A stretch of 53,158 nucleotides of DNA from assembly GCF_007713715.1 (NCBI RefSeq), contig NZ_VJWX01000004.1, positions 1 to 53,158 on the forward strand, in the 5' to 3' direction. The translations under genes were made by a program, and so were the position numbers. The notes beneath the pieces are model-generated. The model was not told the DNA's origin. It did no database searches and saw nothing but the letters and a program-made list of their open reading frames with translations. The DNA is from Amycolatopsis rhizosphaerae. Its GTDB lineage: Bacteria; Actinomycetota; Actinomycetes; Mycobacteriales; Pseudonocardiaceae. Positions 1 through 1,188 of the stretch are shown here, piece after piece. The number at the start of each line of letters is the position of its first letter. Within the stretch, counting starts at the first letter, position 1.

Positions 1-979
1 GTTTGTGGGCGCGCATGGTGGCCAGCAGGTAGGTGATGGCGATCATGGTGACGATCCCGGCCCAGAGCAGGGCGCTGTCGAAGCGCCACGGGGTGAACAG
101 CAGGCCGAGTCCGCTGGGCACGGTGGCCTGGATCATCATGGCGCCGGAGATGTTGGCCAGCGCGAGGCTGGTTTTGCCCTGGCGGACCCAGATGATCGCG
201 TTCATGATCTCGGGCAGTTCGGTGGCGATCGGGGAGAGCAGCAGCGCGGTCACTGCGCCGGCCAGGCCCAGCATCGGGCCGATCGCGTCGAGTTGGTGCA
301 CGAACAGTTGCGAGGCCAGGAAGATCACTGCCAGGGTGGCCAGCGTCTGGGCCACCACGGCCCAGGTCGCCGGCGATGTGCGGTGGGGCTGGATCTTCAA
401 CGGTGCCAGCCACTCGTTCTCGCTCTGCTCACCGGCGCCGCTGCGGATCTCGCGCCAGAAGTAGACGGCGTAGGTGGCGAAGAACAGCAGCCCCAGCCAC
501 GGTTTGATGGTGAACGCGACCAGACCGAGCCCGATCTTGACCGTGAACACCGCGAGAAACCAGCGCTGGTCTTTCACCAGCCTGTGCGTATCTTCGGGCC
601 CGGTTACCTCGGTTTGCCGCGGGGCCTCCGGTTGCGGGTTGCTGCCGCCTGCGGTGATCAGGGCCTGTGCCGCGATCTTGGGGCGTCGGGCCAGCAGCGC
701 GAAACCGGTGATGCCGTAGGCGATCGTGGCCAGCGCGAGGGGGCCGCCGAGGGCGGCGCCTACTCCGATGTCGCGGGACTGCGTTGTGCCGCCGGTGGTG
801 ACCGCGACCAGTGTGACCACCGATTCGGGAAGGGCGGTGCCGAACGCGGCCAGCACGGTGCCGACGGCCATCCGGCCGACGTTCAGCCGCTGGCCCAGCC
901 ACTCCACTGCGTTGACGAACCACTCACAGGAAAAGTAGATCGCCGCTGCACACACGACCAGTAACACGAAATGCCACAC
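1..979 (-). CDS. Cation/Ca2+ exchanger (CaCA family), C-terminus cut by window edge
   Basis: About 326 residues are visible; the 3' end lies outside the window. It is an integral membrane protein with two inverted alpha repeats. The first carries the signature GTALPES near residue 45 and the second carries SPIATELPE in the C-terminal half, as in sodium/calcium (YrbG-like) exchangers. A charged cytoplasmic loop (roughly residues 85-150) separates the halves. I chose the GTG at 979 because a GAGGA sequence lies nine bases upstream; an in-frame ATG at 1000 has no good ribosome site. A yybP-ykoY riboswitch candidate lies about 105 bases upstream, so the physiological substrate may be Mn2+ (inference). 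The long open frame on the opposite strand here is a coding shadow. Confidence 0.85.
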   Translation of the reverse strand, partial: MWHFVLLVVCAAAIYFSCEWFVNAVEWLGQRLNVGRMAVGTVLAAFGTALPESVVTLVAVTTGGTTQSRDIGVGAALGGPLALATIAYGITGFALLARRPKIAAQALITAGGSNPQPEAPRQTEVTGPEDTHRLVKDQRWFLAVFTVKIGLGLVAFTIKPWLGLLFFATYAVYFWREIRSGAGEQSENEWLAPLKIQPHRTSPATWAVVAQTLATLAVIFLASQLFVHQLDAIGPMLGLAGAVTALLLSPIATELPEIMNAIIWVRQGKTSLALANISGAMMIQATVPSGLGLLFTPWRFDSALLWAGIVTMIAITYLLATMRAHK

Positions 980-1084
980 GGCAACCCGTCCTCGTCCCAT
1001 ACCGCAGTCGGCGCGGGACCAAGGAGGGAACCTCGATCCCGCGCGACGGCGACCCTTTGCGTCAACAGAGCCATCGATTCGGGA

Positions 1085-1188
1085 CCGAAGGTCTCGCCCA
1101 CCCGCCTTCAGGCGGGCCCCGCGACCGGCACCCCCAGCGGGTGTTCAGCATGTCGATCAGCGGGCCGCGTGGGGCTACTCCCCTCCGG
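1085..1188 (-). promoter_or_regulatory. yybP-ykoY (Mn2+-sensing) riboswitch candidate
   Basis: Read on the minus strand, the element opens with CCGGAGGGGAGTAGCC, has GAACACCC in its middle and closes with GGGCGAGACCTTCGG. These match the conserved blocks of the yybP-ykoY class (GGGGAGUAGC at the 5' side, GCGAGACCUU at the 3' side). The outer bases CCGGAGG (1182-1188) and CCTTCGG (1085-1091) pair as a 7-bp P1 stem including one G-U, and internal GC-rich arms (such as CCCGCC/GGCGGG) fit the two-legged fold. It precedes a CaCA-family exchanger, a cation transporter class found downstream of this riboswitch. Ligand and mechanism are inferred from the class. Confidence 0.8.

Follow-up and report, generated by a model that had tools for sequence, protein, structure and literature searches.

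The analyzed stretch of Amycolatopsis rhizosphaerae DNA (NZ_VJWX01000004.1, positions 1 to 53,158; 53,158 nucleotides, hereafter the window) contains, on its minus strand at 1085–1188, a putative Mn2+ riboswitch aptamer of the yybP-ykoY class without the P2 hairpin. The identification was based on a structure shared by 75 leaders and on a match to a held-out model, R3. Judged from its sequence, the RNA is confirmed as a true member of a known riboswitch class, in a form without P2 (a three-way junction), and very probably it acts as a Mn2+-sensing genetic ON switch for the CaCA exchanger gene that follows it. Among the close relatives of this exchanger (80 kept as the best of 500 found), 66 are preceded by a Mn2+-type switch, which is a direct hint to the exchanger's substrate.

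All of the aptamer elements are on the minus strand. The 5′ strand of P1 (P1.1 in the literature), CCGGAGG at 1182–1188, pairs with CCUUCGG at 1085–1091, the presumed switching strand, which can pair either with 1182–1188 or with a downstream segment, D. In the window P1 consists of seven base pairs, including one G-U, between the first and last elements of the aptamer; because these pair, the coordinates 1085–1188 given in a preliminary description of this DNA are the exact ends of P1, and its claim that the minus strand carries both conserved blocks and a pairing P1 was borne out. The 5′ side of L1, GGAGUA (1176–1181), occupies columns that are invariant in the 75 leaders, and its 3′ side, GAGA (1092–1095), is part of the GAGACC block identified from the sequence and the alignment of the 75 leaders. 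P1.2 pairs GCCC (1172–1175) with GGGC (1096–1099), the latter read from the sequence. P3.1 pairs CCCGC-U-GAUCG (1154–1164, with U 1159 bulged) with CGGUC-GCGGG (1118–1127) and has family-wide support in the leader alignment. The L3 heptamer ACAUGCU lies at 1147–1153, the P3.2 hairpin, with two A-G mismatches in the window copy, at 1128–1146, and the P4 hairpin GCCCGCC-UGAA-GGCGGGU, found from the sequence and the leader alignment, at 1100–1117.

In the crystal structure of the X. oryzae riboswitch, L3 has the sequence ACA48UACU and Mn2+ is contacted through N7 of A48 (PMC6754395); the A at 1151 is the counterpart of A48. This A, L1, and GAGACC are all intact in the window copy, where pairing is complete in P1, P1.2, and P4 and is interrupted by one bulge in P3.1. 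The P2 hairpin, part of the four-way junction of the crystal structures, is absent, the linker in the aligned leaders being about 4–8 nt and too short for it. Folded as a single sequence, the window RNA was no more stable than shuffled sequences (z = −0.08).

The gene behind the aptamer (2–979, minus strand) has a likely GTG start at 979 and is cut by the end of the window and contig; an in-frame ATG is present upstream at 1000, and the reading frame is open. When the longer frame was scanned, Pfam Na_Ca_ex (PF01699) matched over 2–1000 with 91 bits in two stretches, corresponding to the two repeats. The closest protein among the matches listed was from Amycolatopsis taiwanensis (80% identity). 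P1 and the likely GTG are separated by 105 nt, in agreement with the spacing of about 105 bases to a CaCA exchanger that had been claimed earlier. An AlphaFold model of the exchanger had a mean pLDDT of 49.8, which is too poor for judging the site and supports no claim.

Computation showed that the aptamer is conserved before this exchanger family. The exact core, GGGGAGTAG[CT], was found within 250 nt upstream of the gene for 66 of the 80 highest-ranking exchanger homologues out of 500. In the remaining 512,125 bases of the exchanger loci it occurred four times on the same strand and once on the opposite one. Among the 14 related exchangers of these 80 (best 80 of 500) with no exact core within 250 nt upstream, one (L043) has a one-base variant of the core, and two (L026 and L048) retain the 3′ block, GCGAGACC, alone. 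In a blastn search with the leader, 18 of the 61 related genomes, its own among them, had a match. The core was present on the strand read in 9 of 21 other blastn places, and at least four more were matched by the RNA model. The script read one strand, so some true copies are missing from the alignment (A1): 12 of the 21 blastn loci (L082–L102) gave no core, and of these 12, L088, L089, and L091 were later matched by model R2 on the minus strand and L086 on the plus strand. A suspicion of tandem copies at L100 and L102 was dropped, as these were GC-rich repeats in which the core was not found. Alignment A1 comprises 75 distinct leaders (the window + 67 + 7); 13 of the 80 protein-derived loci (best 80 of 500), where no core lies within 330 nt, and two blastn duplicates were left out, and for L015 the 3′ boundary was placed manually at a later GAGACC.

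When the RF00080 architecture minus P2 was placed on the 75 leaders, 96.0% of 2396 cells were standard pairs, and 19 of the 32 pairs had two-sided changes. The P1 helix, with six counted pairs, was 99.6% paired; P1.2 was 100% paired, and one of its pairs was altered on both sides in 25 of the 75 sequences. None of 500 shuffles did as well on any of five measures, and sliding the partners by 1–3 columns lowered pairing to 34.5–52.0%. The third-position A of L3 was present in 75 of 75 leaders, in which the heptamers were ACAUGCU (31), ACACACU (24), ACAUACU (10), ACACGCU (9), and ACAUCCC (1). The consensus drawn by RNAalifold itself (model R1) pulled part of L3 into P3 and was set aside for the RF00080-type architecture. 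P1, P1.2, P3, P4, and covariation were also upheld in a set of 32 sequences without records titled Pseudonocardiaceae; within that set P1 itself had no two-sided change.

A subset of 32 of the 75 leaders, with no record titled Pseudonocardiaceae (the likely family of the window's genome) among them, served to build model R3; L011 in this subset is a record of unclassified Actinomycetes. R3 matched the window at 1076–1191 with 74.9 bits (E 3.5e-18), the next best match in the window scoring 12.4 bits. The alx and mntP leaders of E. coli, which we take to be experimentally established Mn2+ riboswitches, scored 36.3 bits (E 1.5e-7) and 25.3 bits, respectively, with R3; R2, the 75-leader model, gave 38.8 bits (E 2.5e-8) with the leader of alx, a gene annotated as Mn2+ exporter Alx. 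The R2 alignments placed L1, L3, and GAGACC of both E. coli leaders in register, and alx was aligned without a P2 insert. Absence of P2 is therefore not disqualifying, and the P2-less form is common to the window group and the alx leader. The alx leader differs in its TerC/Alx target, in an L3 of the UCA type, and in its GC-content (0.50 as against 0.72). The claim of the yybP-ykoY class is thus supported by covariation, by invariant L1 and L3 residues, by the alx and mntP matches, and by gene context.

The covariance model RF00080, which had been suggested as the check, did not match the window at the thresholds applied; of the stems P1–P4 expected to accompany a match, P1, P3, and P4 were found and P2 was absent. 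The same model had no match in the window's whole genome and none reaching the cut-off in 20 related loci. Among six related actinobacterial loci, L016 (36.9 bits), L022 (30.4), L094 (27.8), and L096 (16.4) were all below the cut-off, and L068 and L087 had no match. RF00080 does work on controls, with matches in 3 of 14 named genomes, including those of E. coli and B. subtilis. With the Rfam 15 model, the E. coli alx leader (L104:2350–2600, a 251-base search) had no match at E ≤ 10, so that it is missed as the window is, and the mntP leader scored 41.6 bits against a gathering cut-off of 45; the cut-off is therefore not discriminating. RF00080, silent or weak in the related genomes and then failing on alx as well, was dropped as an arbiter. 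The window RNA resembles RF00080 in P1, L1 (GGAGUA/GAGA), P1.2, P3 with a seven-nucleotide L3 bulge (ACA-NN-CU), and P4, and in preceding a cation transporter gene; it differs in having no P2, in an L3 of ACAUGCU rather than ACAUACU, and in a score below the reach of the Rfam model.

In the 61 related genomes, RF00080 had matches in 5 at E ≤ 0.01, none above the cut-off, whereas R2, 8 of whose 75 training sequences derive from these genomes, had matches in at least 52. In practice, the P2-less Mn2+-type switch, which is common in Actinobacteria, may therefore go unannotated wherever RF00080 is relied on. Among 396 genomes drawn across the phylum, R2 matched at least 80. Both of these counts (52 of 61 and 80 of 396) are lower bounds because the filters were strict; the search of the 61 genomes missed the TerC leader of the window's own genome.

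To describe the genes behind the RNA, the core was placed in 92 of 96 loci, four without a recognizable core being skipped. The downstream genes encoded GDT1 (38), TerC (37), CaCA (12, including the window), P-type ATPase (2), and unknown proteins (3), in a set that is not a random sample because it combines the best matches (L105–L160, 56 loci) with others chosen among further matches (L161–L200, 40 loci), holds two places twice (L134/L174 and L160/L198), and includes the window itself (L120). The proteins for classifying these genes came from the same loci plus the window, and representatives were named by Pfam. The 12 CaCA genes are divided between the clade of the window (6, window included) and a second CaCA clade (6), whose proteins (L113, L116, L121, L124, and others) are about 410 aa long and distantly related. 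In the window's genome the TerC gene also carries the RNA in its leader (L203, 53.0 bits), and a GDT1 gene there has no such RNA just upstream. According to a review, the UPF0016 (GDT1) gene is under a yybP-ykoY riboswitch in 328 of 333 screened strains having the gene (PMC7380456). TerC proteins have also been described as aiding Mn-binding exoenzymes (PMC10898510). The RNA is also found before the gene for a protein of some 290 aa, a candidate member of the Mn2+ regulon, at L160:593–1468 (minus strand) and L199:364–1227 (plus strand); neither protein had a Pfam match, and that of L160 had no NCBIfam match. Another place in the window's genome, L099:1511–1590, holds a decayed second copy of the 5′ half of the aptamer with the core GGGGAGCACC, and no exchanger was seen behind it.

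The region between P1 and the exchanger gene was examined in 66 leaders (the window and 65 of the best 80 loci), one of which had no D match in the duplex test. Segment D, GGGAUCGAGGUU (1029–1040, minus strand), is an alternative partner of 1081–1093. By computation this alternative is conserved: a D segment able to pair with the 3′ strand of P1 is located downstream of it in 65 of the 66 exchanger leaders. The duplex of this strand with D has a free energy of −20.5 kcal/mol in the window and a mean of −20.2 kcal/mol in 65 leaders, as compared with −10.9 for shuffled sequences and −18.7 when D was swapped among loci (sd 0.26, 20 swaps); swapping is the fair control because the pattern used for finding D itself favors complementarity. 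D was the best partner of the strand in 63 of 65 leaders. In ligand-free folds P1-D pairing prevailed over P1 in 62 of 66 leaders, with mean probabilities of 0.75 and 0.004, respectively. For the window the probability of P1-D was only 0.47, and there a D-E hairpin competes: segment E, GGUCCCGCGC (1011–1020, minus strand), pairs with 1035–1044 and so competes with the P1-D duplex. A putative Shine-Dalgarno sequence, GAGGA, is located at 989–993 (minus strand).

The ability of the P1 3′ strand to pair with a conserved downstream segment makes an ON switch likely. Published work describes Mn2+ as stabilizing P1.1 against a terminator (PMC6754395, PMC11087558), and the choice between P1 and D in the window group fits that logic. 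In the mechanism we propose, the 3′ strand of P1 (GACCUUCGGUCCC) would pair with D (GGGAUCGAGGUU) at low Mn2+, and expression would be blocked. As Mn2+ rises, L1 and L3 would dock around the metal and stabilize P1, the P1-D hairpin would be unable to form, and the exchanger would be made, which would then remove Mn2+ and perhaps also Ca2+. We infer the ligand (Mn2+), the direction of control, the choice between a terminator and masking of the ribosome site, and the exported ion.

It is nearly as likely as not that the platform works on translation, in that P1-D pairing, or a relay from D through E to the Shine-Dalgarno sequence, would mask the ribosome site and transcription would not be stopped. 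Such a platform would fit the TerC leaders inspected (seven and L203), which have a GGAGG-type ribosome site inside segment D, and the D-E duplex, which outdid its shuffled versions in 61 of the 66 exchanger leaders. It would also fit the scarcity of terminator-like T runs: the window has none after D, a scan there for promoters and terminators turned up nothing resembling either, and only 3 of the 66 leaders have a strong run (at least 6 T in 8 bases), 63 being without one. However, removal of the P1 strand had no consistent effect on the predicted accessibility of the ribosome site in the exchanger leaders (18 up and 12 down of 66), and translational masking there was set aside on this account; and in the Actinoallomurus records L057 and L069 the P1-D hairpin is followed by five to six T, like an intrinsic terminator. 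An RNA that responds chiefly to Ca2+, or equally to Ca2+ and Mn2+, with an exchanger that exports Ca2+, is unlikely. The gene does fall in Na_Ca_ex, and a yybP-ykoY leader with a three-way junction, that of Streptococcus mgtA, is described as binding Ca2+ more tightly than Mn2+ and regulating Ca2+ efflux (PMC9495176, citing a Streptococcus paper). Yet Mn2+ activates transcription more in that leader (PMC9495176), the metal-contacting A is kept in 75 of 75 leaders, and 75 of the 92 copies examined in Actinobacteria precede GDT1 or TerC, families listed as Mn exporters (PMC9334652). The mgtA leader, compared by description only, shares the three-way junction with the window RNA and differs in controlling a P-type ATPase, according to the title of the paper cited (PMC9495176).

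Loss of function, so that the window copy is a relic, would be in keeping with the decayed copy at L099 (GGGGAGCACC) in the same genome and with the two mismatches in P3.2, but is very improbable given the intact core residues and near-complete pairing described above, the 74.9 bits obtained with the held-out R3, and the open exchanger frame. A chance likeness of a GC-rich leader to two conserved blocks might be suspected from the silence of RF00080 and from the lone sequence folding no better than shuffled ones; conservation and covariation already refute it, the core standing before 66 of 80 homologues (best 80 of 500), 19 of 32 pairs covarying in 75 leaders, and R3 matching the window.

The manganese-type switch in the leader suggests that the exchangers behind it export manganese. 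The Na+/Ca2+ exchanger NCX_Mj (3v5s and others) was used for comparison. Both halves of its PDB chain align to the first half of the family profile, with GTALPE against GTSLPE, although the similarity to the exchanger family is weak (best E 2.9e-8 with the profile) and the stretch after GTALPE, GAAMGGPLALAT, is unlike GNAIGSCICNIG; because of this last difference the choice of ion is not readable from NCX_Mj. CaCA proteins do not appear among the Mn2+ exporter families listed in the available part of PMC9334652, and other literature may list CaCA or P2-less members. On balance we favor the view that the two CaCA clades form a further bacterial Mn2+ exporter family in Actinobacteria, under a common P2-less switch largely invisible to RF00080; the interest of these exchangers lies in this likely addition to the Mn2+ exporters.

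Two further observations concern the plus strand of the window. Just upstream of the riboswitch, at 1482–1980, overlapping short frames resemble pieces of a secreted-enzyme gene; our impression is that they look like a broken gene. At 1948–2083 there is a piece like the 3′ end of a tmRNA (RF00023, 22.6 bits, below the cut-off), at which ARAGORN found no tmRNA. A different contig (C202) carries the complete tmRNA of the genome, and several more partial matches occur elsewhere; the piece in the window looks like a duplicate of an attachment site, of the kind that integrating elements may leave behind.
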